From assembly GCA_963681505.1 (NCBI GenBank), contig OY811972.1, forward strand, positions 5,771,753 to 5,835,752: 64,000 nt of DNA. The letters run 5' to 3'. Positions 1-51,024 of this stretch are shown here, one piece after another. Numbering within the stretch: position 1 is the stretch's first letter; every line of letters starts with the position of its first letter. The position numbers were made by a program, and so were the translations under genes. The stretch is from Eunapius fragilis (lineage: Eukaryota > Porifera > Demospongiae > Spongillida > Spongillidae). Below the pieces are notes generated by a model that worked only from the letters and a program-made list of their open reading frames with translations, was not told the DNA's origin and ran no database searches.

Positions 1-1079
1 TCATATTTTTACAAATGTTAATCATGTGTTAGACCACAATAATATATATTTAAACGACACTCTGATGTAATCTTACCTACCAAAACTAAGCATAAGCCCA
101 TACTTCTCCATTGTAAACGAGCACCAATATGGCGGACTAATTAGAACATGAATACTATTAAGTCACGCGATGAAAGAGCTCTATACTGCGGTTCCTGAAT
201 TATGGCGGGGGAAGGGGGGGCGGCAAATTGATTGGCTGGAAGGAGTGCAGTATACAATCGCAGTCCCCGGCCCCCATCGGTGTATTGTAGTTATTGAAGC
301 TAACGGCTGTGTTGAATATTATAACTACCTGCGATAGTAATTAAACTTTTGTCTTTTTGTATAACGTTGCATACTTATAACGCATTGAAAAATACAATTC
401 GAATTCTTAGTTCATTTAGAATTCAATTTGAAAAAAAATGCAAGATGACCGCCAATGTATGGCCATTTTTTTTTCCATATAGGTAGAAATGGCTGAGATT
501 GGGCACTTTTTAAACTGCATGAAAACGTCACTTTAAAATAGCAAAGCATAGATTCAGTAAACTTGTACTAAACGAGTAGTATATTCAATTTGATATTAAT
601 ATTTATGATCCATATAGATGCTGCATAGCATTAGCATATGCTATCTAATATGATGAGGATCACTACTTTGAATGCATAGGATAGCCGGAAAGGAGGGGGG
701 TGGGGTTGAGGAATACCGGAACATTTTATAACTAACAGAAAGATCCAGGAGGCGAACCAGATGTTTTCAGCAACAAATAGGTATCAGAACCTAAATATCA
801 GAACCAAATTTCCAATTCAAGTTGAATATCCTCTGAATCACAGCTGTTCTATATAGTAGTTTATTTTCTAGCATGAAACTAGTAAATGATTGCAAATTAT
901 TATATAACTAAGCTTTTTTGTTGCACACTATTTCAGTAAATAAACATATCTTATAAACCTGCGTAAAATAAGAGTATAGTTTCTTTCTCCCACGGAGGAA
1001 AATTGGTTAGAGATACAACTCGAGGACTTTATTGTATTGCAAGGAAGATATTGATTATAATGATATTCTTAATTTTATC

Positions 1080-1092
1080 CTCTCTCTCTAGC

Positions 1093-1153
<61 letters not shown>

Positions 1154-1192
1154 CTCTCTCTCTCTCTCTCTCTCTCGATCTCTCTCTCTCGA

Positions 1193-1229
<37 letters not shown>

Positions 1230-1230
1230 G
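1080..1230. repeat. (CT)n microsatellite, copy 1
   Basis: Long CT/TC dinucleotide run broken by a few GATC units. The homologous run in copy 2 is shorter (14162-14268). The reading frame through it (Ser/Leu repeats) is an artefact. Confidence 0.95.
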
Positions 1231-1814
1231 AGTCTCTAGTATGTCAATCATCTATAAATTGTTGTGTTTATAATACGCCACTATGCACAAAGAAAACTCT
1301 CACAAGAAACCCAAATTCCATGGACTTCAGTGGAAAGGTTATCTACTTTCCCTTCTAGTTTCTTATGGCTACAGACAAGTTCAGAGGTCAAGGGTTGAGG
1401 CATAGGAAAGAGTAAACTGATGATAGTAGTTATACTTATGACCATGTCCGGAAAAAAAAGTGTACAGTTAAAACAAGGAGCTCGACTCTCTCGACATAGC
1501 GTGCCTCATCCATAAAGCCTACATACAGGTAACTGATTCAGAATGTAGAAAACAGGATGCATCTTCGTGCATTCAAAGGATCATTTTATCGTACACCATG
1601 CAAATATCTGCAACACCCACTATGGCGACAATCGGATTTTGGTATACGTATCGTTAAATGAGATTCCTGCATCACGTTCGCAGTTCAAAAAAAGTGGTGC
1701 GGCATATATAGCCACACCAACTTGAACAGCGGCATCGGCCCTGTTATTGATGTTTATGGAACTTGCTATGAATATATTCAACCTTTCGTACTAAATATAA
1801 CACTTACATCACAG

Positions 1815-1822
1815 TGACGTAA
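1815..1822 (+). promoter_or_regulatory. CRE/ATF-like site upstream of gene A copy 1
   Basis: TGACGTAA lies 35 bases before the gene A start codon. It is conserved in copy 2 and is echoed by a perfect TGACGTCA before gene B. A bZIP (CREB/ATF) binding role is inferred from the motif alone. Confidence 0.4.
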
Positions 1823-1856
1823 TAGTTGTAAAATTCACAGCCGACCACTCTAAGTC

Positions 1857-2288
1857 ATGGCAGCGCCCTCACTTGTTGGACAAGGAAGCGGTGGACCCGC
1901 TGGGCCGGCCATTCCCGGAGGATCGTCCCAACGTCTTATGACGGAGCTGTGCAATAAGATTGGGTTATTTGGCTCCAAGTTTGACGCGGAGGGTCAGATC
2001 ACATTACAGTTCGATACAATGCAGTTGACATTTATAGCCCATGGATCAGATTCTATATCTGTCATCTGTTACGTTGGGGAAATCGGCAAAAACGAAAACA
2101 TGATAAAGTTGATGGAGCTGAATTTCCTGCCTGGTGCTGGTCGTTTCGCCGTGGAACCCAACTCAACTCGCGCAGTCGCCGTGCATTGTTGGGATACTAA
2201 GAAAATAGCACCTGACGAGTTCTGTAATGGCGTTGAAGCATTCCTGAATCGCGCTGAAAAAGGACAAAAACTCCTCGCCAGTAAATGA
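1857..2288 (+). CDS. Gene A copy 1: CesT/Tir-chaperone-like small protein
   Basis: Intronless 143-aa frame with a normal start (GTCATGG context) and a TGA stop. Residues 1-25 are a Gly/Pro/Ala-rich tail. From residue 26 the layout is an amphipathic helix (RLMTELCNKIGL), a run of beta strands (about 40-75), a helix ending in LMELNFLPGAGRFAVEP, two more strands, and a C-terminal helix (EFCNGVEAFLNRAEKGQKLL). The pattern 'leu-rich helix, N-F/L, G-aliphatic-A-V-P' followed by a final E-F/A-AE helix matches class I type III secretion chaperones (CesT family), which bind and escort effectors in bacteria. It is a paralogue of gene B (shared GSDSI, IGE, LELNF, EPxSTR and EF motifs). The role in an animal cell is unknown. 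The family call comes from reading motifs, not from a search. Confidence 0.6.
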   Translation: MAAPSLVGQGSGGPAGPAIPGGSSQRLMTELCNKIGLFGSKFDAEGQITLQFDTMQLTFIAHGSDSISVICYVGEIGKNENMIKLMELNFLPGAGRFAVEPNSTRAVAVHCWDTKKIAPDEFCNGVEAFLNRAEKGQKLLASK

Positions 2289-2994
2289 GCTCGATTGCAT
2301 GCATGCACGATGGACATGTAGTTGTATGCAGCCCTGGTTGTACATTGTATATAATATTGCATATTATATACATGAATCGTACGCATATACATTATTGAGA
2401 ATGGGGTGAGAGGGAGGTCTATAGGGTACGTGAGAGATGAATGGACTTGGGAGGGTGCGTGATGGTGTCAGATCTAGATCTAACACAAATCCCAGTATAT
2501 AGAACACTGATGCCATTTTACCGTTCAGTTAATTAACCAGGTCAAACGTATGCAAAAAAAAGTGTGTATCAGGACTCGGTCTTAGTGAAAGGAACGCGAT
2601 GTCCCAAGAGGAGAAGAGGAGAGGGATGGCCCTAGGGAGGAAGAGAGGGAGATTAGTGGGGGGATGGCCCTAGGGAGGCAGGAGGGGGGTGGCCCTAGGG
2701 AGGAAAAGAAGGTGGCCTAAAAGGCGAAAAGGGGGGACGGAGGAGGGGGGTGGCCATAGGAGGAGGAGGGAGAATGAATGGAAAAGTGAGATGAAAAGTA
2801 AACTGCAAGGACCGCTATATACGGCGAAATAATCCGGCCTGCATGCAAGTACATGCATGTAGATCCTTCTGCTTTCCACTGATAACTGCGTATCTCTTAA
2901 GATAATACACACGGTCCAACGAAAAATCAATATAGTGCTACTAGATATGTACCATATACTGACATCCTAAATATACGGGCACTAATCAGCACTG

Positions 2995-3444
2995 CTAGGG
3001 GAACATGGCTTGACCTGCTTCGACAGAATTTAAGAATTCTTCCAAGGACTTTGAAAACTCCTCAACAGTAATGATTTTCACATTCCAACTATTGACAATC
3101 ACCACCCGTGTCGATCCTGGCTCGATGGCATAGCTTCCGCCACCATGGTGCATTGGAATGAAATTCAGCTCGAGTAATTTTTTTAAGTGTTCTACCTTGA
3201 ACTTTCCACCAACCTCGCCAATGAAGGCAACAGCGGCAATAGAGTCCGACCCTTGACTTACAAATGTAACTACCAAGGATCCGGATTTATTATACTGTAG
3301 CGTCAACATTCCTTTTTCGTCCATTCTTGTTGTATCGGCCATTCCAATACTTCTGCAAAAGGCGGCCATGAATTGGGCATTGATCGGCTCCTGTTGATGC
3401 TTGATCGCCTCTTTTACGCGCGCTCCGAGCCCTCGTACTGCCAT
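2995..3444 (-). CDS. Gene B copy 1: CesT/Tir-chaperone-like small protein
   Basis: Intronless 149-aa frame, convergent with gene A and 706 bases away tail to tail. Helix 1 (about 22-35), beta strands (about 40-76), helix 2 with HLKKLLELNFIP, a loop MHHGGGSYAIEPGSTR, strand VVIVNSW, and a final helix (VEEFSKSLEEFLNSVEAGQ) follow the CesT-type chaperone layout seen in gene A. The copy-2 partner is 146 aa. Differences between them are almost all in residues 36-65 and all change the protein. No signal peptide or membrane segment is visible, so a cytosolic protein is likely. Function unknown. Confidence 0.6.
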   Translation of the reverse strand: MAVRGLGARVKEAIKHQQEPINAQFMAAFCRSIGMADTTRMDEKGMLTLQYNKSGSLVVTFVSQGSDSIAAVAFIGEVGGKFKVEHLKKLLELNFIPMHHGGGSYAIEPGSTRVVIVNSWNVKIITVEEFSKSLEEFLNSVEAGQAMFP

Positions 3445-3507
3445 TTCAAATTAGTACTGCTACAGCCGTTTTGTTGCATGGGGGGTACGGGTAGATTCTA
3501 GGTAGAA

Positions 3508-3515
3508 TGACGTCA
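3508..3515 (-). promoter_or_regulatory. CRE-like palindrome upstream of gene B copy 1
   Basis: A perfect TGACGTCA is 64 bases upstream of the gene B start codon and is conserved in copy 2. Factor identity is inferred. Confidence 0.4.
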
Positions 3516-3697
3516 TAAATACGCTAAATATAGATCCCAATCTAGATATAGTTTTCATCGCGTGACTTAATAATTATGCTATAACACATTCCACAACATG
3601 GTGATGTCATGGTGATATAACACAATGCACATCCAAATTATTATGAAGTGCATGAAACGGCTTCTGATATACTTGAATTCGCAATGTTATAAGTTAA

Positions 3698-4494
3698 TGT
3701 CTATTGTCCTGAGTGGCCACCCGGGGGTACAATTGGACACCCGGGTGGACAGCAAAAAAAGTTTTTTGCCGTTCGGTCGTGGAAGGGACCTAGTGGCATT
3801 TAACGGTACCGGCTTATAGAACAAGCCTTTCTAGGATCGGGCCGAGATAAGTAAGGCTTAAATCCTTTCGATACCCGTAAAACGAGCCGTGCTAGCGGAC
3901 CTATCCATTACGGTCCGTGCGGTACGTACATATCGTATACGAGCTACGTAAGGTAAGTTTTTTTTTGCCAACGTTCATACAGATAGTAAAATAGCTGTTT
4001 CTCTGGACTAGTGTTTGTCAGCAAAAGGTGATAGAGAGCTTTCAGCTGTCTGTTTAGGCCTATGTTTAAAAGGTCATGTACGAGTATAGTCTATACGCGT
4101 ACATGTTCTTTTAAACATAGGCCTACCAGCAAACAGACAGCTGAAAGCTCTCTATCACCTTTTGTTCATTTGTTGACAAACAGTAGTCCAGAGAAACAGC
4201 TATTTTACTATCTGTATGAACGTTGGCAAAAAAAACTTACCTTACGTAGCTCGTATACGATATGTACGTACCGCAGGGACCGTAATGGATAGGTCCGCTA
4301 GCACGGCTCGTTTTACGGGTATCGAAAGGATTTAAGCCTTATTTCTCTCGGCCCGATCCTAAAAAGACTTGTTCTATAAGCCGGTACCGTTAAATGCCAC
4401 TAGGTCCCTTCCATGACCGAACGGCAAAAACTTTTTTTGCTGTCCACCCGGGTGTCCAATTGTACCCCCGGGTGGCCACTCAGGACAATAGACA
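3698..4494. mobile_element. Foldback MITE with TTAA target duplication (piggyBac-type)
   Basis: This 797-base element is almost one long hairpin, with arms of roughly 380-390 bases and a short loop near 4080-4105. It begins TGTCTATTGTCC and ends with the reverse complement. It is flanked by TTAA at 3694-3697 and 4495-4498. Copy 2 has the uninterrupted empty site (a single TTAA near 17099), so this is an insertion after the duplication. TTAA duplication is typical of piggyBac-group transposases. It encodes no transposase. Confidence 0.9.
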
Positions 4495-4639
4495 TTAAGC
4501 GATCGACTTAAGTCCATATCCAATATTGCATATACTGATTTACGGCTATCATTATATGGAACAGTGTCCAGCAAAATCACCCTTGAGATACTTTTCCAGG
4601 ACCAGCAAATGAAAAGTATAACTCTTGCATTGAAACGTA

Positions 4640-5333
4640 TGGCAACATTGCAACATGCTCTTGACTGTAAGGTTGGTGGCCTAGTTATCCAGAGACATAA
4701 TGAGATCAGAGATTGCGTTGGAGATATTGCAGCACAGGTGTGGACACAGGTTGTCAGAGAGCCAATCGTTAGAGAGGCAGAAACACAAGTGGATGACTCA
4801 GGGTTGAGGCTGGATTTGGGGGTGCGTGGTGTTTGGCAACCTCAGGCAGAGGCGCTCTTTGACTTCAAGGTCATTGATACAGATGCCCCATCATACAGCA
4901 ATCGCTCGCCAGAATCAGTTCTTGAATCGGGTGCTCAGGAAAAAAAGAGAATTTACAGGCAAGCAGTTGAAGATCGGAGAGGTACTTTTACACCCTTTGT
5001 GATTTCAGTTGATGGACTCCTTCACCGGGAAGCAGAGCACTTCCTGAAGAGAATGGCCACATGTGTTGCAAGCAAATGGAAAAAGTCTTATGCACAAACA
5101 TGTGGCTACATCAGAGCAAGGCTTTCATTTGCCATCATCAGAGCAGCCAGCTTATGCCTAAGGGGTTCCAGAGTAAAGTGGAGAAGTGGCCTGGGCTTTG
5201 AGGATGGGGCCGCTCTTTACTCAATCATGCATTGAACCATTTATTGGTTAAAAATTCTCATAAGTTATGTGATATGTATAATGGCTGTATGTGTGTGTAT
5301 TTGCTGTAAGTTTAGTTAAAAAAAAAAAAAAAA
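4640..5333 (+). pseudogene. 3' fragment of a retroelement (RT-associated C-terminal domain), poly-A tailed
   Basis: The frame open from about 4643 to 5234 encodes a protein region I recognise from cnidarian and sponge retroelements: ALDCKVGGLVIQRHNEIRD, then VWQPQAEALFDFKVIDTD, EKKRIYRQAVEDRRG, FTPFVISVDG, and ARLSFAIIRAASLCLRGSR near the end. The spaced D...E-x-K pattern suggests a restriction-like (PD-(D/E)XK) nuclease fold, by inference. No reverse transcriptase core is present, so it is 5'-truncated. A 16-base A tract (5318-5333) fits a reverse-transcribed end. The upstream start codon near 4564 is host flank, shared with copy 2. Confidence 0.7.
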
Positions 5334-7415
5334 TGGCTCATTATTAGGTACTTTGACAAATCGCGTAAGTGGGTCCGTAAATCGATGATCTAAAACTACG
5401 TCGAAAACTGGACCCGTATTTCGTAAAGTTTGAAAAAGGTCTTAACAAGCGACGAAACTTATTCGATTCTCTGCACGGCTAGTCCGACTACACAGCTTGA
5501 CTTAGCTAGCCAATTAGTTGTAGAATGCAACACCAATGCCTAATTTCGAGCTGGTTCGAATTCCGGATCTATATTTGTTTTGACGCATTGAATTCGTAGT
5601 ATAACTTCGGGAATGAATCTTGACTCTAATTGTGAGCCAACTATCACGGGATGTATATTGTTATTTAAATCAGGTATTGAATCGTCATACTACAAAGTAT
5701 GAGGACGTTTGGATGATGCCCAAAGGGTGCTTTAACCACCCAGGCGTTTTGTGTTGGTCTGCATGAAAAAAGAACACACAAGCTTATGTAAATGTATCTT
5801 TATATTTTAACTAATTAGGTTTAATTAGATTCTTTGTCTACAAAGCTTAAGCACATAGCCATTTCATACAATAAAATATTTTGTGACTACGTACCCTATT
5901 TATTGCACACCCCATTCATTGATCAACTAAGTTGTTAATGACATTACGTTGAAGATTGAACTAATTTTTCTATTTCTGTCGTTGTAACATTGCAATTCGA
6001 TGATGCCCACGCAGTGTTCTTTTCAAGCCAAATATTCATATTTAATTAGATGCATGTGTAATTACTGATGCGCATCTGCGCAACCAATGCTTTGTTGCTA
6101 TTTAGAATGAAGATAGTTATTGATCTCAAGAGGCTCATTAATAAATATATGTAAAAGGATGTGAGTGAGCATGGATCCCTTCTAGCTCCTGATATAAGAA
6201 ATGGCTTACTGCATTTTGAATTGCCTTAAAATGAATCCCAAACAAATACATTCAACGATCCACTTTCATCGGTCAATGCTCTGCACACTAGCCAAACTGA
6301 CACTTCCCAATCCATACCAATAAACCTTAGATCTAGCTACACTATATATGAGGTAAGAAAAAGTGCTTTTTTTACATAAAAAAAAGGAATTTGATTACAC
6401 ATGTACATCAAATTAGGTTGAGTACTTGCTAGTGTTAAAATGCTAAACCATACAGTATCTTCAAAGTGCAATGATCAAGTTGGCCCACACGAAAGTGGGA
6501 TTTCTATATAGCAAAGTTAAAAGTAAGATCATTAAAACACTGCTATGATTGTGTTGTTTCACCCACAGGATGAACAGCAAGATAATTTGGTAAAATTTTT
6601 GCAAAACACAGGTCAGGTATGCTGGACAAAAAGTTAAGAATCAGAAGAATAAGGATACATTTAGGAGAAGTATTGGAAAAAAATTTGTAGAGAAAGAAGA
6701 TTATTTCCTACCTAACTACAATATTAAATGTTTTGTCAGATATATGGTGTCTACATTTACATCTTTGGTAGAAGAATGTACTCTGATAATGGGCATGTAG
6801 TTTGTGTGAAACCTTTTACAATGCCAAAATTCCTAAAGTCATTGTAACCTATTGGAAGTTGAAGAAGATGGGGATAAGTGAACTGAATACATGAATCTAT
6901 TTGTACGTGTATTGTACATAGTGTGGTGTTTTTGATATGTTTCTTATGTCAGCTTTGCATTAAAAATTGTACTAGCAGTTAGATTTATATCAGTTAGTAC
7001 CATACTTCTAATCACTCAGTACATATAGTTATATGTGTACTATTTGCAGAATAACCTTAATTCTTATCATGACCAATGGTAAGTGTTAGTTACTTATTGA
7101 AGCGAAATCCAATGCATCCGTATGTATGATATCAGCAAGACTATGTATATTAAAGTTTTGGTTAAGGCTGCACACTTATTTACATCTCTATACTGATTAT
7201 AAACTCAACCGGGACAGTTTTTGTTTTGCGTACCCTATCAATTCACGTACATTCGCGATCATTTCATTTGTGATCTTTCGAATGGCGTGGTGCTCGCAAC
7301 GAAACGCATCACCATGAATATAAGGTATCTTTGGGATGTAGATTTTTTGCTCTTTCCAACGATATATAATATGCGGCTTAAATCCCAATTTCAAAAAAAT
7401 ATCAAAGTACCTATC
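5334..7415. other. Copy-1-specific insertion remainder
   Basis: AT-rich sequence absent from copy 2. It lies between the retroelement A tract and the point where the two copies realign (about 7416). I see no convincing reading frame, terminal repeat or RNA gene. It may be transduced flank or a second, decayed insertion. Confidence 0.5.
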
Positions 7416-8165
7416 ATTATGCATTCAGTACGTATACCCTATATAACTTTCTGATGAATAGCCCATGTTTTGGATGCGTAAGGACCATTTGATAGAAAGT
7501 CTTTGGAGTTAACGGAAATAAAATCCAAAAACGTGAAAACTTGAAAAACTACCCAGAAGGGTGATTTTGCTATAGACACTGTCCCATATATAGCTGTACC
7601 GTTTATATAAAACCATTGGACACCTAGTTATGTATATAATTATATTGATGCATCACATGCGTTCATTCAAAGCCACTATTTAGACAGCTCCTCTCGGTTA
7701 TGTGGCCTTCACCAAGAACTGGTTCCACTGTCCTTATTCCCCCCCCCCCCCACCTTTGATTGGGTTCCATCGGGTCACTCTTTTAACACGTGCCCATGTA
7801 CGGGCACATAAGAACAGCCCTTCGAGAAGTTAGCCAGTAGGCATGTTTAGGCCAGACAACTTCATCGAACAAAAGTACTATTAAAACGTGGCGTCTGTTA
7901 CATGAAGTGGTGCTCAGATTATACTTACGTAATTACAGTGAGGACAACAATACAAAAGGACAAGAGGAGCCATTCTCCCCAGTAGGGTGCTGTGACATCA
8001 CCATGTTGTTATTTTAAAAAGTTTATAAGCATAGGCCACAGTGATTGGATGCACTGTAGACCATTGGACATCACGTGCCCAACAAAAGGTATAAATATGC
8101 ACTCTCAAAATATCAATATCACGCTACATAGTAATGTATGCATGCACACGAAGAGGTCCTGGGGA
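7416..8165. other. Shared intergenic sequence 3' of the WDR19 tail (copy 1)
   Basis: Matches 17270-18015 in copy 2 nearly base for base, apart from a variable poly-C run. No gene is visible. It should hold the 3' UTR of the minus-strand WDR19 tail. Confidence 0.5.
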
Positions 8166-9545
8166 CTAGGCTTCAATGTCTGATTGAGGGGGTGGACTGG
8201 GCACCAGCTTGACGTCGTCCACGTTTACGTTGGCTGCACACATGGGACACACCCTCTCATCAGGAGCTGAAGATTCCAACAACCTGCCAAATCGTGTGTG
8301 GGGGAGGTAAACATGAATGGCACACACATATATGCACACACACATAATGACACTAACTTTTTGAACTCAGAGTACAGTGCAGGGAAATGGCAAGAAGGGC
8401 ACTGGGACCAATCGTCTTTGAGCATATGCCACCCCTATATGTAGAAGGGAGAGATATGGGGGGAGGGGGAGGGAGATATGGGGGGGGGAGGAAGAGGTTG
8501 ATGAAAAGGAATGGTAGGGGTGGGAGTGGGGGGGGGGGTATGGTTGGGGTCCAAACGTACAGTGACTATGCAGTAAGGAATATTGTTCTTGCACTGAGGG
8601 CAGTCCAGCTTGGTCTGCAGCAATGGTTGTGAGCAGTAGGGACATGGCTCTAGTGGTTCTTCCACTTCGCCTTTGTCAGGCTTTCTACAAATACATGTAC
8701 ATAAAATACACAACACACATGCACATGTACATGTGTACTTATTGTACATGTACATACCCACATGCCTGCAGATCTACATGTACATACAATGCATGTGTTC
8801 AACACCCAAGACTGCACGTAACCACAGAAGTACAGTGAATCAAGTAAAAAGTGGTCACGAATAGTCGCTCCAATGCCCATGCAAGGACATATGAATGCAT
8901 AATCGCACTCTCACCTCACTATCTGTTCTATCTTCTTCTTCCATTTTGGGTCAATCTTTGCCCTGTTCTCTGGCCTCAGTAACATGGCAGCAAAGTTAAA
9001 CGCAGAGTTCTTAAGACCCGAGCGATGGCATTCGATCACTGTTGAAGTCAGGATGGGAACAACATCTGGAAAGGAGGTAGAGGAATTGATAGGCCAGATG
9101 GGGTGGGAGGTGGAGGAAGGGATGAGTGTGGAGGTGGGGGAACACTCAAAGTGTGCAAGTGTACATGTGTAGCCGTGAGTTCAGTACATGAGGCAATGAT
9201 TACATGCACATACTGCAACGCCTAATTCAGCAAATTACTATAAGAGTGTGTGTGCAAATGAAGCACTGCATCAAGCAACCATCACTACATGCACATACAT
9301 GTATGCATGCATACATGCACACAGGTACGTACATATACATGTACATATACACAAACATTACAGCCCAATTCAGAGAGGCACACATACACATTGTGCAAGG
9401 ATTGTTGTCACATCCCTAAGGCGAGTGTGTACATTGAATTGAACTTAGTTGATCACCACATATGGTGCTGTATTAATACCTTGGTACAAATTATATGCAG
9501 GGGGCACCCCCTCTGAAGGAACTCCTATATGTGCTTTGGTGTTTG

Positions 9546-9599
9546 TGTGTTTGTGTGTGTGCATGTGTGTGTGTGTGTGTGTGTGTGCATGTGTGTGTG
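9546..9599. repeat. (GT)n microsatellite
   Basis: Impure GT run left of exon 43' of the WDR19 duplicate. A shorter version is in copy 2 near 19610-19650. Confidence 0.9.
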
Positions 9600-9809
9600 C
9601 AATCTACTTACGGCTTGGAAACTTGCTAATGTTGTTGGCAACACGGACCAACATTCTGGCTCCTTTGGCATGCTCCTCCCTCTTCACCAGAAGCTGAAGG
9701 GACGCAGGACAACACTTAACAGAGCAGTACCATCGTACCGACACACTCACACAGTTGGGACATAAATGGAATGTTCTCTGCATACAATGTAGATGCACAC
9801 AACAAACCC

Positions 9810-9812
9810 CAA

Positions 9813-9846
<34 letters not shown>

Positions 9847-9889
9847 ACACACACACACAACACACACACAGACACACACACACACACAC
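9810..9889. repeat. (CA)n microsatellite abutting a splice donor
   Basis: The CA run ends exactly at the 5' splice site of exon 42' (minus-strand donor GTGTGTGT). The copy-2 equivalent is 19845-19950. Confidence 0.9.
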
Positions 9890-10700
9890 CTTGACTAGGA
9901 TGTAGCTGTGGAGGATCATTAGGTTCTGGGTCATCTCAGATGGTATTCGGATGTTACGTTGTTGGAGCTCTGTAATTCAATTGTACCCTGATCACACACT
10001 GTGCATGTACTTAAGTACATGTATCCAAATTCAGAAATACAATCTACTACACCAACATAAAAAAAAACAATACAACTGCATTGAAACAGGTAATCCGTAT
10101 GACTTACAGTGTACATAATTATACATTGGTGTAAACATTGCATACAAGTGTACGGCCCTCCCGGTGCATGCACACACGCTGCACTGGGGTATTTATACCT
10201 TCCCATGCAGCTACCACGTACACAAGCTGACCACTTCAAGTCAGTAATGACCCTTCAGCCACCTCTGAAGTACTATACACATGCAAGGGGTTACCTGCAT
10301 GCATGTGGAATAAGACGTCGTGAGCATTCCTGTAGTTCCCGGCCGTCTGGTCCTCCCTCGCTATCAAGATGGCCGTGCGTGCTGCTTCCCTGTACTCCCC
10401 CAGGGCCATGTACAGGCGGAAGAGGTACTTGGCATCCTGTGGACAGTGGTGGGACCCATGCAATGGTCAGTATATGTGTGTGTGTGTGGGGAGGGGGGGA
10501 GACACGCCCACATCCCACAAGGGAGAAGACAGATCCCCCCCCCTCCCCCCCTCCACCCTCGTAGGGTGCAGTGACCAACATTGTACATGTACATGCATGC
10601 AGGTGTGGATAGTGTTTACAGTTGCACCTCATCGGAACCTGCGTCAAAAAGGTTTCCATATAAGAGTGATTTGGTATACTATAATAAACATTTAAATAAA

Positions 10701-12175
10701 CACCACACCACACCCACTGGAGTGCACACACCACACCCACTGGAGCACACACACCACACACACTGGAGTGCACACACCACACCCACTGGAGTGCACACAC
10801 CACACCCACTGGAGCACACACACCACACACACTGGTGCACACACACTACACCCACTGGTTCACACACACCACACCCACTGGAGTGCACACACCACACCCA
10901 CTGGATTGCACACACCACACCCACTGGAGCACACACACCACACCCACTGGTTCACACACACCACACACACTGGAGTGCACACACCACACCCACTGGAGCA
11001 CACACACCACACCCACTGGATTGCACACACCACACCCACTGGAGCACACACACCACACCCACTGGAGCACACACACCACACACACTGGAGCACACACACT
11101 ACACCCACTGGTTCACACACACCACACCCACTGGAGTGCACACACCACACCCACTGGAGTGCACACACCACACCCACTGGATTGCACACACCACACCCAC
11201 TGGAGCACACACACCACACCCACTGGAGCACACACACCACACCCACTGGAGTGCACACACTACACCCACTGGAGCACACACACCACACCCACTGGTTCAC
11301 ACACACCACACACACTGGATTGCACACACCACACCCACTGGAGCACACACACCACACCCACTGTAGCACACACACCACACACACTAGAGCACACACACTA
11401 CACCCACTGGTTCACACACACCACACCCACTGGAGTGCACACACCACACCCACTGGAGCACACACACCACACCCACTGGATTGCACACACCACACCCACT
11501 GGAGCACACACACCACACCCACTGGAGCACACACACCACACCCACTGGAGTGCACACACTACACCCACTGGAGCACACACACCACACCCACTGGTTCACA
11601 CACACCACACACACTGGAGCGCACACACCACACCCACTGGAGCACACACACCACACCCGCTGGAGTGCACACACCACACCCACTGGAGCGCACACACCAC
11701 ACCCACTGGAGCACACACACCACACCCACTGGATTGCACACACCACACCCACTGGAGCACACACACCACACCCACTGGAGCACACACACCACACCCACTG
11801 GAGTGCACACACTACACCCACTGGAGCACACACACCACACCCACTGGTTCACACACACCACACACACTGGAGCGCACACACCACACCCACTGGAGCACAC
11901 ACACCACACCCGCTGGAGTGCACACACCACACCCACTGGAGCGCACACACCACACCCACTGGTTCACACACACCACACACACTGGAGTGCACACACCACA
12001 CCCACTGGAGCACACACACCACACACACTGGAGCACACACTACACCCACTGGAGTGCACACACCACACCCACTGGAGCGCACACACCACACTCACTGGAG
12101 CACACACACCACACCCGCTGGAGCGCACACACCACACCCACTGGAGCGCACACACCACACCCACTGGAGCACACA
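10701..12175. repeat. 23-24 bp minisatellite, expanded array
   Basis: Around 60 tandem units of the type CACACACCACACCCACTGG plus AGTG, AGCA, TTCA or ATTG variants. It lies in the intron between WDR19-duplicate exons 40' and 41'. The orthologous array in copy 2 (20767-20957) has about eight units. Long reading frames in several phases arise because the unit lacks stop codons, and are not genes. Confidence 0.97.
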
Positions 12176-12594
12176 AGGACAATCGAATGCGCCTGGATGT
12201 GATGGCACACGTCCATTGTTAAGACACACCCTCCAAATAACGCTCTACCTTTGGCACACCGTCAGTCTCTCCCATGAGGTAGTCGGTGAGCTGCTGTGTA
12301 AGGGATTCAAGCCTTGCCTTCCCAACCTGCACGGAGGGGAATAGAACAAACAAAAAAAGGCAAATGGATAGGACATCCATCCAAAGACGTCAGGTCATGA
12401 GGTTCTGGGTTGGTTAATGCGTGCAACGCTTGCAACAACTTACGCGACTTCAATAGCTACGTCAATGTTTTCTCCATCGGGGTGTAGGGTGGTTGGTTGG
12501 AGAAGGAGATGGTGGAGGGCCTGGGAAGGATGATGTGATAGTTATACATTAACAGCACCATAGGGGTCAGACAAGACAATGCATGCAAACGTAC

Positions 12595-12912
12595 ATCCCC
12601 CCTCCCCCCCCACCCCCCCCCCCCCCCCCACCTGCAGGGTTTCATCGAGAAAAAATTTTAAGGGGGGCAAACGCAGAATTGATACTTTTTAGAGGGGGCG
12701 ATTATAAGGCAAATCAGATTACTTTGAGCCTACAGTATATGTCACTTAAATGTACATGTACATTGTGTGTACTACATGTACCTTAGTTATGATGCATTTA
12801 TTAAAGATCACTCCCTAAATACCAAGGGGGGGGGGGCAATATATTGGCAAGGGGGTCATTTGCCCCCCCCCCCCCCCCCCCCCCCCCTCCTCGATGAAAC
12901 CCCGCCCCTCCC
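12595..12912. mobile_element. Foldback element with GGGTTTCATCGAG ends
   Basis: GGGTTTCATCGAG at about 12637 is mirrored by CTCGATGAAACCC near 12891. The interior holds G-rich and C-rich runs that can also pair. A shorter, more degraded form is in copy 2 (about 21390-21655), so it predates the duplication. No target duplication could be fixed. Confidence 0.5.
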
Positions 12913-12973: not shown

Positions 12974-13149
12974 GTACTGATTTGTATCGTTGTATTAGCA
13001 TGCACTGGTGGAAGTTTTTGCTAGCAACAAATACGGAAAAGTTAAAGTGGCTGGGGCTTTCGCCCCAAAACCCATTGGGTGAGCTTACAACACTCCCCCA
13101 AAACCCCTCCCTGTGGGAGGGGAACGCCTCCGAGGGCACAAGTAAAAAA
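12974..13149. other. Duplication junction segment
   Basis: About 176 bases lie between the end of copy-1 homology and the base matching window position 1. They have no partner inside the window. The simplest reading is that they are the true left end of the duplicated unit, whose copy-1 counterpart lies just outside the window. Confidence 0.6.
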
Positions 13150-14171
13150 TCATATTTTTACAAATGTTAATCATGTGTTAGACCACAATAATATATTTTT
13201 AAACGACACTCTGAAGTAATCTTACCTACCAAAACTAAGCATAAGCCCATACTTCACCATTGTAAACGAGCACCAATATGGCGGACTAATTAGAACATGA
13301 ATGCTATTAAGTCACGCGATGAAAGAGCTCTATACTGCGGTTCCTGAATTATGGGGGGGGGGGGGGGGGCAAATTGATTGGCTGGAAGGAGTGCAGTATA
13401 CAATCGCAGTCCCCGGCCCCCATCGGTGTATTGTAGTTATTGAAGCTAACGGCTGTGTTGAAATTATAACTACCTGCGATAGTAATTAAACTTTTGTCTT
13501 TTTGTATAACGTTGCATACTTATAACGCATTGAAAAATACAATTCAAATTCTTAGTTCATTTAGAATTCAATTTGAAAAAAAATGCACGATGACCGCCAA
13601 TGTATGGCCATTTTTTCTTCCATATGGGTAGAAATGGCTGAGATTGGGCACTTTTTAAACTGCATGAAAACGTCACTTTAAAATAGCAAAGCATAGATTC
13701 AGTAAACTTGCATGTACTAAACGAGTAGTATATTCAATTTGATATTAATATTTATGATCCATATAGATGCTGCATAGCATTAGCATATGCTATCTAATAT
13801 GATGAGGATCACTACTTTGAATGCATAGGATAGCCGGGGAGGAGGGGGGTGGGGTTGAGGAATACCGGAACATTTTATAACTAACAGAAAGTTCCAGGAG
13901 GCGAACCAGATGTTTTCAGCAACAAATAGGTATCAGAACCTAAATATCAGAACCAAATTTCCAATTCAGGTTGAATATCCTCTGAATCACAGCTGTTCTA
14001 TATAGTAGTTTATTTTCTAGCATGAAACTAGTAAATGATTGCAAATTATAAAATAATAGTATAGTTTCCTTCTCCCACGGAGGAAAATTGGTAAGAGATA
14101 CAACTCGAGGACTTTATTGTATTGCAAGGAAGATATTGATTATAATGATATTCTTAATTTTATCCTCTCTC

Positions 14172-14241
<70 letters not shown>

Positions 14242-14900
14242 CTCTCTCTCTCTCTCTTTCTCTCTCTGAGTCTGTCAATAATCTATAAATTGTTGAGTTT
14301 ATAATACGCCACTATGCACAAAGAAAACTCTCACAAGAAACCCAAATTCCATGGACTTCAGTGGAAAGGTTATCTGCTTTCCCTTCTAGTTTCTTATGGC
14401 TACAGACATGTTCAGAGGTCAAGGGTTGAGGCATAGAAAAGAGTAAACTGATGATAGTAGTTACTTATGACCATGTCCGGAAATAAAAGTGTACAGTTAA
14501 AACAAGGAGCTCGACTCTCTCGCGACATAGCGTGCCTCATCCATAAAGCCTACATACAGGTAACTGATTCAGAATGTAGAAAACAGGATGCATCTTCGTG
14601 CATTCAAAGGACCATTTCATCGTACACCATGCAAATATCTGCAACACCCACGGCTATGGCGACAATCGGATTTTGGTATCATGATTTCATTGACCACGCG
14701 TTTAAAAAATATATATTTAGGATATCAACTTCGTATCGTTAAATGAGATTCCTGCATCACGTTCGCAGGTACAAAAAAAGTGGTGCGGCATATATAGCCA
14801 CACCAACTTGAACAGCGGCATCGGCCCTGTTATTGTATTCATCATGTTTATGGACTTGCTATGAATATATTCAACCTTTCGTACTAAATATAACACTTAC
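13150..14900. other. Intergenic sequence upstream of gene A (copy 2)
   Basis: Aligns with 1-1800 of copy 1. It contains a CT microsatellite (14162-14268) and short reading frames that are broken in one copy or the other. No gene is supported. Confidence 0.6.
14162..14268. repeat. (CT)n microsatellite, copy 2
   Basis: Counterpart of the 1080-1230 run, shorter and with fewer GATC interruptions. Confidence 0.95.
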
Positions 14901-14907
14901 ATCACAG

Positions 14908-14915
14908 TGACGTAA
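14908..14915 (+). promoter_or_regulatory. CRE/ATF-like site upstream of gene A copy 2
   Basis: TGACGTAA, 35 bases before the start codon, identical in copy 1. Confidence 0.4.
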
Positions 14916-14949
14916 TAGTTGTAATATTTACAGCCGACCACTCTAAGTC

Positions 14950-15381
14950 ATGGCAGCGCCCTCACTTGTTGGACAAGGAAGCGGTGGACCCACTGGGCCG
15001 GCCATTCCCGGAGGATCGTCCCAACGTCTTATGACGGAGCTGTGCAATAAAACTGGGTTATTTGGCTCCAAGTTTGACGCGGAGGGTCAGATCACATTAC
15101 AGTTCGATACAATGCAGTTGACGTTTATAGCCCATGGATCAGATTCTATCTCTGTCATCTGTTACGTTGGGGAAATCGGCAAAAACGAAAACATGATAAA
15201 GTTGATGCAGCTGAATTTCCTGCCTGGTGCTGGTCGCTTCGCCGTGGAACCCAACTCAACTCGCGCAGTCGCCGTGCATTGTTGGGATACTAAGAAAATA
15301 GCACCTGACGAGTTCTGTAATGGCGTTGAAGCATTCCTGAATCGCGCTGAAAAAGGACAAAAACTCCTCGCCAGTAAATGA
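14950..15381 (+). CDS. Gene A copy 2: CesT/Tir-chaperone-like small protein
   Basis: 143 aa, intronless. It differs from copy 1 at three residues (A16T in the Gly/Pro tail, I36T, E88Q), along with four silent changes. The chaperone-like core is intact, so the duplicate is probably functional. Its relation to gene B copy 2 (convergent, about 1.0 kb apart) is kept. The spacing is larger than in copy 1 because of the extra segment at 15543-15802. Function unknown; the fold assignment is by motif reading. Confidence 0.6.
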   Translation: MAAPSLVGQGSGGPTGPAIPGGSSQRLMTELCNKTGLFGSKFDAEGQITLQFDTMQLTFIAHGSDSISVICYVGEIGKNENMIKLMQLNFLPGAGRFAVEPNSTRAVAVHCWDTKKIAPDEFCNGVEAFLNRAEKGQKLLASK

Positions 15382-15542
15382 GCTCGATTGCATGCATGCA
15401 CGATGGACATGTAGTTGTATGCAGCCCTGGTTGTACATTGTATATAATCATTGCATACTTAGGAATTCATGCAATAAATAAAATAGATATTACTAGACTC
15501 GGCTGATGAATCGTACGCATATACATTATGGAGAATGGGGTG

Positions 15543-15802
15543 TGTAGTACCTACCACTGATACTGACATGTCAATTGGTACACACTATAATGACTTATGC
15601 AGCAACACCAAAACAACGAACACAATGTACATCAATAAGCACCGTACGTAGTTCAATGACAGATATTGTTCTCCAGTCTAGACTGACTCTTTACTTCAAT
15701 GCTAGGCCTTAAGAATGCCCCAAACTGGTTCTACCGGATTCTGCCATCTCACTGCGCATGCTCCACTTGCATGTTCTATTGTTAACCAGTTACTACAGGG
15801 TT
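15543..15802. other. Copy-2-specific 260-bp segment
   Basis: Present between genes A and B in copy 2, absent at the matching point of copy 1 (about 2408). I see no terminal repeats or target duplication, so either an insertion here or a deletion in copy 1 is possible. Confidence 0.6.
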
Positions 15803-16411
15803 AGAGGGAGGTCTATAGGGTACATGAGAGATGAATGGACTTGGGAGGGTGCGTGGTGGTGATCTAGATCTAACACAAATCCCAGTAAAACATGCCATTT
15901 TACGCTTCAGTTAAATAACCAGGTCAAACGTATGCAAAAAAAAAAGTGTGTATCAGGACTCGGTCTTAGTGAAAGGAACGCGATGTCCCAAGAGGAGAAG
16001 AGGAGAGGGATGGCCCTAGGGAGGAAGAGAGGGAGATTAGTGGGGGGATGGCCCTACTGAGGGAGGCAGGAGGGTGGTGGCCCTAGGGAGAAGAAGAAGG
16101 TGGCCTATAAGGCGAAAAGGGGGGACGGAGGAGGGGGGTGGCCATAGGAGGAGGAGGGAGGATGGATGGAAAAGTGAGATGAAAAGTAAACGCTCATGCA
16201 ATTGCAAGGACCGCTATATACGGCGAAATAATCCGGCCTGCATGCAAGTACATGCATGCAGATGCTTTCTATGACTGCGTATCTCTTAAGATAATACACA
16301 CGGTCCAACGAAAAATCAATATAGTGCAACTACATATGTACCATGTACCATATCCTGACATCCTATAAATATACGGGCACTAATCAGCACTGCAGCGTAG
16401 TTCAGGATCAA

Positions 16412-16852
16412 CTAGAGGAACATGGCTTGACCTGCTTCGGCAGAATTTATGAATTCTTCCAAGGACTTTGAAAACTCCTCAACAGTAATGATTGTCACTT
16501 TCCAACTATTGACAATCACCACCCGTGTCGATCCTGGCTCGATGGCATAGCTTCCGCCACCATGGTGCATTGGAATGAAATTCAGCTCGAGTAATTTTTT
16601 TAAGTGTTCTACCTTGAACTTTTCACCAACCTCGCCAATGAAGGCAACAGCGGCAATAGAGTCCGACCATTGACAGTCAAATGTAACTACAAAGGATTTA
16701 TCAATCTGTAGCATCAACTGTCCATTTTCGTTCATTCTTGTTGTATTCATTCCAATACTTCTGCAAAAGGCGGCCATGAATTGGGCATTGATCGGCTCCT
16801 GTTGATGCTTGATCGCCTCTTTTACGCGCGCTCCGAGCCCTTGTACTGCCAT
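16412..16852 (-). CDS. Gene B copy 2: CesT/Tir-chaperone-like small protein
   Basis: 146 aa, intronless. Relative to copy 1 it lacks three residues through two in-frame deletions (one near residue 36, two near residue 55). It carries about 20 amino-acid changes, concentrated in the beta-strand region around residues 36-65. I found no silent differences over about 440 bases. The N-terminal helix, the LLELNFIP helix and the EEFSKSLEEF helix are nearly unchanged. This is the pattern of a protein whose surface strands are being altered while the scaffold is kept. A tract copied from another paralogue is the main alternative. Confidence 0.6.
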   Translation of the reverse strand: MAVQGLGARVKEAIKHQQEPINAQFMAAFCRSIGMNTTRMNENGQLMLQIDKSFVVTFDCQWSDSIAAVAFIGEVGEKFKVEHLKKLLELNFIPMHHGGGSYAIEPGSTRVVIVNSWKVTIITVEEFSKSLEEFINSAEAGQAMFL

Positions 16853-16906
16853 TTCAAATTAGTACTGCTACAGCCGCAAGGGGGTACGAGTAGATTCTAG
16901 GTAGAA

Positions 16907-16914
16907 TGACGTCA
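16907..16914 (-). promoter_or_regulatory. CRE-like palindrome upstream of gene B copy 2
   Basis: TGACGTCA, 55 bases before the start codon, conserved with copy 1 despite a small deletion between motif and start. Confidence 0.4.
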
Positions 16915-18015
16915 TAAATACGCTAAATATAGATCCCAATCTAGATATAGTTTTCATCGCGTGACTTAATAATTATGCGATAACACATTCCACAACATGC
17001 ATATGGTGATGTCATGGTGATATAACACAATGCACATCCAAATTATTAAGCAGTGCATGAAACGGCTTCTGATATACTTGAATTCGCAATGTTATAAGTT
17101 AAGCGATCGACTTAAGTCCATTTCCAATATTGCATATACCGATTTACGGCTATCATTTTATGGAACAGTGTCCAGCAAAATCACCCTTGAGATACTTTTC
17201 CAGGACCAGCAAATGAAATTAAGGTATAACGCTTGCATTGAAACGCATGCATGGCTAATTATACATTCAGTACCCTATATAATTATATAACTTTCTGATA
17301 GCCCATTTTTTGGATGCGTAAGGACCATTTGATAGAAAGTCTTTGGAGTTAACGGAAATAAAATCCAAAAACGTGAAAACTTGAAAAACTACCCAGAAGG
17401 GTGATTTTGCTTTTGACACTGTCCCATATATAGCTGTACCGTTTATATAAAACCATTGGACACCTAGTTATATATATATTATTATATTGATGCATCACAT
17501 GCGTTCATTCAAAGCCACTATTTAGACAGGTCCTCTCGGTTATGTGGCCTTCACCAAGAACTCGTTCCACTGTCCTTATTCCCCCCCCCCCCCCCCCCCC
17601 CTCCCCCGCCCCCTTTCCATCGGGTCACTCTTTTAACACGTGCCCATGTACAGGCACATAAGAACAGCCCTTCGAGAAGTTTGCCAGTAGGCATGTTTAG
17701 GCCAGACAACTTCATCGAACAAAAGTACTATAAAAACGTGGCGTCTGTTACTTGAAGTGGTGCTCAGATTATACTTACGTAATTACAGTGAGGACAACAA
17801 TACAAAAGGACAAGAGGAGCCATTCTCCCCAGTAGGGTGCTGTGACATCACCATGTTGTTATTTTAAAAAGTTTATAAGCATAGGCCACAGTGATTGGAT
17901 GCACTGTAGACCATTGGACATCACGTGCCCAACAAAAGGTATAAATATGCACTCTCAAAATATCAATATCACGCTACATAGTAATGTATGCATGCACACG
18001 AAGAGGTCCTGGGGA

Positions 18016-51024
<33,009 letters not shown>

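Follow-up and report, generated by a model that had tools for sequence, protein, structure and literature searches.

Tandem pairs of CesT-family genes in the genome of the sponge Eunapius fragilis

Results

A CesT-family gene pair

The window, by which we mean the whole 64,000-nucleotide stretch of Eunapius fragilis DNA analysed here, covers C2:5771753-5835752 and belongs to a 17.6-Mb contig in an assembly of 218.9 Mb and twenty-four contigs. Close to its left end lie two small genes, A1 and B1 (Table 1), whose proteins belong, by profile match, to CesT, a sequence family of type III secretion chaperones known from bacteria. A preliminary description made from the letters alone had placed a CesT-like pair here and called the two genes paralogous, convergent, and intronless. 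Both open reading frames were found. Each encodes the complete domain in one open frame without need of a coding intron, and the two face each other on opposite strands with 40 per cent identity across 125 amino acids (E = 2e-33 in a pairwise protein comparison).

CesT (PF05932) was the only family that Pfam returned up to E = 10, for A as for B, with 32.8 bits (E = 8.4e-8) and 40.0 bits (E = 5e-10), respectively, against a curated cut-off of 22 bits. Homologues confined to a known eukaryotic family, which the preliminary description had allowed for, did not appear, and the YbjN profile (PF10722) matched neither protein in this search. NCBIfam gave a weak SicP match for A (E = 8.8e-4; 19.1 bits, far below the model cut-off of 99) and no match for B. 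Searching the PDB by sequence returned nothing for A and one unrelated match for B (E = 1.7), and no family of anti-phage defence profiles (PADLOC) matched either protein up to E = 1.

The predicted structure of A runs helix, three strands, helix, two strands, helix. This is the layout that had been read from the letters, and the different fold that might have appeared instead did not. In a VIA structure comparison, type III chaperones scored well above YbjN and Arp2/3, and the alignment with SicP reached residue 127 of 130. Some well-scoring proteins are not titled type III chaperones: a Synechococcus protein (11.8, at a root-mean-square deviation of 10.1), DR_1245 of Deinococcus (11.7), and PA14_16140 (10.8). 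The model supports assigning A the fold of class I type III chaperones.

Eight copies in tandem units

Searches of the genome with A and with PF05932 found the identical eight genes, all above the PF05932 cut-off and all inside C2:5747509-5788604, where they form one cluster of four A/B pairs. Two pairs are in the window (A1/B1 and A2/B2, the second not named in the preliminary description) and two lie to its left. Three of the four are convergent, while the leftmost has both genes on the minus strand. Seven of the eight copies have full-length intact frames. In the remaining one, an A copy left of the window (L020 3654-4086, C2:5765406-5765838), an extra base after the seventh codon shifts the frame. 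It reads 116 amino acids from an inner ATG, from which a protein without the N-terminal extension may be made. Because of the profile scores above the cut-off, the substitution pattern between A and B (see below), and the eight clustered copies, a chance origin of these reading frames is ruled out.

Self-alignment of 124 kb revealed repeated units, mostly 88-98 per cent alike in their aligned parts. Both units in the window contain an identical 76-amino acid open frame, of which 58 residues match PDB chains named WD repeat-containing protein 19 (IFT144; E = 1.9e-22). The neighbour of A and B is WDR19/IFT144, which the preliminary description had called an animal gene of 47 exons. The aligned DNA of the units implies that the other two carry similar copies of this WDR19 exon. 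Wnt genes gave seven exon-sized matches at three places in the genome (best E = 1.4e-39). As Wnt genes are not known outside animals, these matches support an animal as the host of the array. The FHIPEP family of the export gate is common to flagella and injectisomes. It had no match in the assembly at E = 1, in a search limited to this one component of type III secretion systems, with control matches in four of fourteen genomes.

Change among the copies

Between A and B, the rate of replacement substitution (dN) is 0.53-0.59 for full-length A copies and 0.46-0.52 for the truncated one, and the silent rate (dS) is too high to compute, which means long purifying selection between the two. The A copies differ pairwise by three to six replacement and two to four silent changes. 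Among the B copies, 27 aligned codons carry an amino acid change and six only silent changes. Indels affect seven alignment columns, all in frame, and all four frames are open. B1 and B2 are separated by 20.5 replacement changes and 0.5 silent ones, and dN/dS over the six B pairs ranges from 0.27 to 11.6.

These B changes are clustered. Fifteen of the 27 replaced columns fall inside 33 of the 151 columns, a segment that extends from the loop following helix 1 through strand 2 (scan P = 7.5e-4, or 5e-5 with indels; the width of 33 columns was chosen after inspection of the data). This pattern suggests selection for change in B, and only locally, since the overall 27:6 is near the site ratio of about 345:93. 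Identity between A and B also varies by region, being 19/34 from helix 2 to strand 5, 14/43 from helix 1 to the turn before strand 3, and 11/28 from the loop after that turn through helix 3. In SrcA, CesT, and SicP, the conserved sites are mostly in helix 2 and strands 4 and 5, which lie at the dimer interface (excerpts of PMC2816692). In the CesT–Tir complex, Tir adds to the CesT sheet in the cleft between helix 1 and strand 1, pinched by helices 1 and 3 (excerpts of PMC6114900). Using the model of A and the alignment to assign the cleft in the animal proteins, the B copies appear to vary in the part predicted to hold cargo.

Bacterial relatives

PF05932 scored above its cut-off in one of forty-eight bacterial genomes (a marine Hahella; the genomes were picked from eighty loci drawn by an arbitrary pattern) and in seven of 299 genomes of the Hahella phylum, so the profile is not promiscuous. 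For the reverse search, we built a profile from the eight animal proteins only and ran it on bacterial genomes, taking the phylum of each set from the title of its centre locus. Three of 398 genomes of the Hahella phylum matched at E = 0.05 (best 2.2e-7, L152; the third, L154, is unlike CesT). In the order of the L152 genome, one of 150 matched, which was that genome again. The phylum of a Planctomycetota locus gave one of 199 (E = 8.3e-7, L155), that of a Verrucomicrobiales locus ten of 240 (best 3.2e-7; one match is a fragment with stops), and one order of the Verrucomicrobiota phylum six of 141 (best 3.4e-8, L181; two shared with the phylum search). None of 146 genomes of the Corallococcus phylum matched at E = 0.01, which is not evidence of absence. 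Pfam assigned the bacterial proteins found to CesT in eight of eight cases in one set and six of six in another (the L155 gene is in both). BLASTP alignments of them that span most of the domain show about 19-28 per cent identity with A1 or B1.

Four genomes of the Verrucomicrobiota-phylum order have adjacent pairs of CesT relatives, and in two of these (L187, L188) Pfam assigned both genes to CesT. L152 adjoins a gene with Secretin and Secretin_N domains. In L187 (6839-10156), the pair directly follows a gene for 770 amino acids with a protein kinase domain, a layout like that of an effector and its chaperone. L190 has three CesT-like genes (6071-6550, 9010-9438, 9463-9921) within 4 kb around one gene for 769 amino acids, the first of which is placed as CesT-like by the tree alone.

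Searches of other collections returned no relatives. B had no match among plasmids at E = 10, and A had a single chance match among phages (E = 9). Pattern matches of A1 in genome contigs (357) and viral contigs (326), and of B in viral contigs (10), yielded no confirmed case.

In a tree with forty bacterial rows, A and B are sister groups within one clade (support 100/99) on a stem of 1.47 changes per column. The next fork has a Shimodaira–Hasegawa-like approximate likelihood ratio (SH-aLRT) of 0, and no bacterial sister of A and B is supported in this tree. Removing ten long rows (thirty bacterial rows left) gave the same topology, with support of 100/100 and a stem of 2.35. One of the ten, L176 (branch 6.46, odd make-up, 49 per cent of columns, probably the wrong frame), is included in the forty rows of the tree and of the tail and charge counts below. 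Left out of the tree were L144 and L145 (below cut-off), L154 (unlike CesT, E = 0.049), L164 (the fragment with stops), L174, L177, and L179 (PF05932 matches), and L162 (a near copy of L159). L170 and L171 repeat L152 and L153, and L182 and L183 are represented by L187 and L190.

Tail length and charge

The animal proteins have four to six residues after helix 3. The median in the forty bacterial rows is twenty-eight, and only one row has ten or fewer. Twenty-one of the forty carry, at the very end of a variable tail, a motif like F-[IML]-R-V (e.g. GFIRV, SFMRV), by a pattern defined after the rows had been inspected. The animal proteins are of 15-16 kDa with isoelectric points of 5.8-7.9, compared to a median of 4.63 for the mostly acidic bacterial rows. 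Most bacterial rows were read from stop to stop (L187, L190, and L191 from the first start codon), which makes their isoelectric points and N-terminal lengths rough. When Xanthomonas HpaB lacks residues 137-160, binding of effectors and of itself is kept, and release by the ATPase is almost lost (excerpts of PMC7842900). By analogy, a short-tailed animal protein could hold what it binds.

Gene signals and other features

All four B copies and three of the four A copies have G at -3 and +4 of the start codon. The fourth A copy was scored seven bases inside its old start; the context of that old start likewise has G at both positions. Eight of the eleven CRE-like (cAMP response element) octamers in the 124 kb lie directly upstream of the eight genes: TGACGTAA at -42 of the A copies (-49 for the fourth, counted from the shifted start) and TGACGTCA at -62 to -71 of the B copies. 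As the copies are duplicates, this conservation counts as two cases, not eight. The hexamer AATAAA lies at +91 or +92 downstream of every A copy except A1, and neither AATAAA nor ATTAAA occurs within 900 bases downstream of the B copies.

A 23-base minisatellite adjoins the WDR19 exon copies, with sixty-four copies at 10704-12175 and eight at 20771-20958, an expansion in one of two recent duplicate units. At 3694-4498 lies a near-perfect foldback element of about 800 bases, whose nested inverted-repeat arms (73, 211, 67, 34, and 35 nt) are 91-100 per cent complementary around one centre. Within sequence that has no aligned counterpart in the other units, an open frame of 223 amino acids (4564-5235, plus strand) looks like a piece of a retroelement.

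Table 1. Positions of the annotated features, numbered from the first base of the window.
Feature	Position	Strand	Basis
A1, CesT-family protein, 143 aa	1857..2288	+	ORF, Pfam profile, predicted structure
B1, CesT-family protein, 149 aa	2995..3444	-	ORF, Pfam profile, paralogy to A1
A2, second A copy, 143 aa, 98% identical to A1	14950..15381	+	genome search
B2, second B copy, 146 aa, 88% identical to B1	16412..16852	-	genome search
Tandem unit holding A1 and B1 (edges approximate; begins ~25 bases left of the window; carries inserts that other units lack)	1..12836	.	self-alignment
Tandem unit holding A2 and B2 (edges approximate)	13125..21648	.	self-alignment
Open frame with WDR19/IFT144 exon, A1/B1 unit	10236..10466	-	ORF and PDB sequence match
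Open frame with the same WDR19/IFT144 exon, A2/B2 unit	20302..20532	-	ORF and PDB sequence match
CRE-like octamer TGACGTAA, 42 bases upstream of A1 ATG	1815..1822	+	
CRE-like octamer TGACGTCA, 71 bases upstream of B1 ATG	3508..3515	-	
CRE-like octamer TGACGTAA, 42 bases upstream of A2 ATG	14908..14915	+	
CRE-like octamer TGACGTCA, 62 bases upstream of B2 ATG	16907..16914	-	

Discussion

A and B resemble the class I type III chaperones of PF05932 (CesT, SicP, ExsC, VecA, SycE) in profile match, size, and conservation of the side formed by helix 2 to strand 5, and the model of A has their fold and order of elements. They differ in lying in an animal genome, as tandem pairs beside WDR19 with no export-gate gene found, and in their near-neutral charge, short tail, and low identity. 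The CesT pairs of the Verrucomicrobiota order (L187, L188, L189/L156, L190) are likewise two adjacent paralogues and are among the best matches of the animal profile, but they stand head to tail, whereas A and B are convergent and sisters to each other. The YbjN/AmyR family scored lower than the type III chaperones in VIA, and its profile did not match. The laboratory truncation of HpaB is tail-free after the CesT domain as A and B are, a likeness of build only. By the features tested, A and B are not working type III secretion chaperones in this host. The antitoxin-like chaperone Arc1 was considered as a parallel and set aside, as its structure is called atypical of type III chaperones (excerpts of PMC4938570). 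A literature search with partial coverage of open-licence PMC papers turned up no published case of an animal CesT protein, and in the available text of a coral paper (PMC3750612) the words 'type III secretion chaperone' refer to a reference on a flagellar chaperone.

Lateral gain from a bacterium, suggested in the preliminary description, remains the most likely origin, with bacterial CesT proteins matched by a profile built from the animal ones. No donor emerged, however, and the branch is long and isolated. We consider a bacterial origin very probable. The simplest reading of the tree would be one gain followed by an old duplication into A and B, though two related genes may have been gained from an unsampled donor. 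Descent of A and B from the two members of a Verrucomicrobiota-type pair is not supported by the tree, in which they are mutual sisters.

Our best explanation as a whole, to which we give a probability of roughly 0.4, is that A and B are laterally gained binding dimers, free of any export role, whose ligands are injected effectors. An ancestral CesT gene would have entered the animal lineage from a bacterium long ago and then duplicated. Purifying selection would have acted as A and B diverged, and at a later time a segment comprising A, B, and a 3' part of WDR19 would have been copied to four units. The proteins would have kept the chaperone fold, with no link to export apparent. As soluble dimers (A-A, B-B, or A-B), they would clamp a short hydrophobic peptide that joins the sheet between helix 1 and strand 1, and we find dimer formation with peptide binding somewhat probable. 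In effectors that symbionts or pathogens inject, this peptide would be the chaperone-binding segment, and the effector would be held and not released. As ligand we slightly favour such effectors, with a fixed host client almost as likely, and a microbial ligand taken by itself is doubtful. Co-option for effector binding, offered as speculation in the preliminary description, would fit the site of variation in B and the short tail. In its fullest form, the proposal is a cytosolic animal capture protein that grips the segment a bacterium's own chaperone must grip, lacks the release tail (as in the HpaB truncation), and has a cleft varied among copies, which we regard as unlikely.

Several points weigh against this explanation. 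No bacterial donor was found, the tree gives no supported sister, and the stem is isolated at 1.47-2.35 changes per column. SicP too ends shortly after helix 3 (127 of 130), so export is compatible with a short tail; in charge, the host proteins are close to neutral instead of acidic; and FHIPEP is the only secretion component family that was searched for in the genome. The 27:6 replaced to silent codons in B are near neutral, relaxed constraint could explain much of this change, and one A copy is frame-shifted. YbjN proteins share the fold with no secretion role known from the available text of PMC5398634, and CesT-like domains are found together with PspA in settings other than type III secretion (excerpts of PMC11237479).

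Another possibility, which we hold tentatively, is that the gained CesT proteins chaperone or regulate an endogenous host protein, with tandem copies supplying dose and B variants serving related host clients. This would be consistent with the long purifying selection between A and B, with CRE-like promoter sites conserved upstream of all eight genes, and with bacterial CesT-like proteins that act outside effector export too (PMC11237479), but the local variation and in-frame indels at the cargo side of B are less expected for a fixed client. The array could also be young and its duplicates partly relaxed, such that A is functional, extra B copies drift, and the clustered changes mark a tolerant, loop-rich segment. 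The near-neutral codon counts in B, the frameshift in one of four A copies, and the loops included in the variable part of B would fit. We nevertheless judge this improbable: all four B frames are open with indels only in frame, B1 and B2 differ by 20.5 replacement and 0.5 silent changes, and the clustering has P = 7.5e-4.

Two further accounts concern origin. A and B could be a vertically inherited, seldom noticed eukaryotic branch of the fold that matches CesT through distant common descent. Such a history is very unlikely, given that the sequence match is to CesT alone, that the animal profile reaches bacterial CesT proteins at E = 3.4e-8, and that YbjN and Arp2/3 score well below type III chaperones in VIA. 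Bacterial contamination or a chimeric contig would account for a family known from bacteria, and the preliminary description had already thought it unlikely. It is practically excluded because the tandem units that carry the eight genes lie within a contig of 17.6 Mb and also carry copies of the WDR19 exon, Wnt genes are present, and no FHIPEP gene was matched in the assembly; the eukaryotic-type start contexts and CRE-like sites also speak against it.

Type III chaperones are usually regarded as parts of bacterial injection machines. Tandem CesT genes in an animal chromosome suggest that a bacterial protein-binding tool was taken over for the animal's own use, and four chromosomal pairs, long kept and with no detectable export gate, would show the CesT domain living apart from secretion in a eukaryote. 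Whether a host uses a bacterium's own effector handle against it is a question directly testable with two small proteins. Such capture of effectors, if real, would amount to a novel form of animal defence against injection systems, or of symbiont control.
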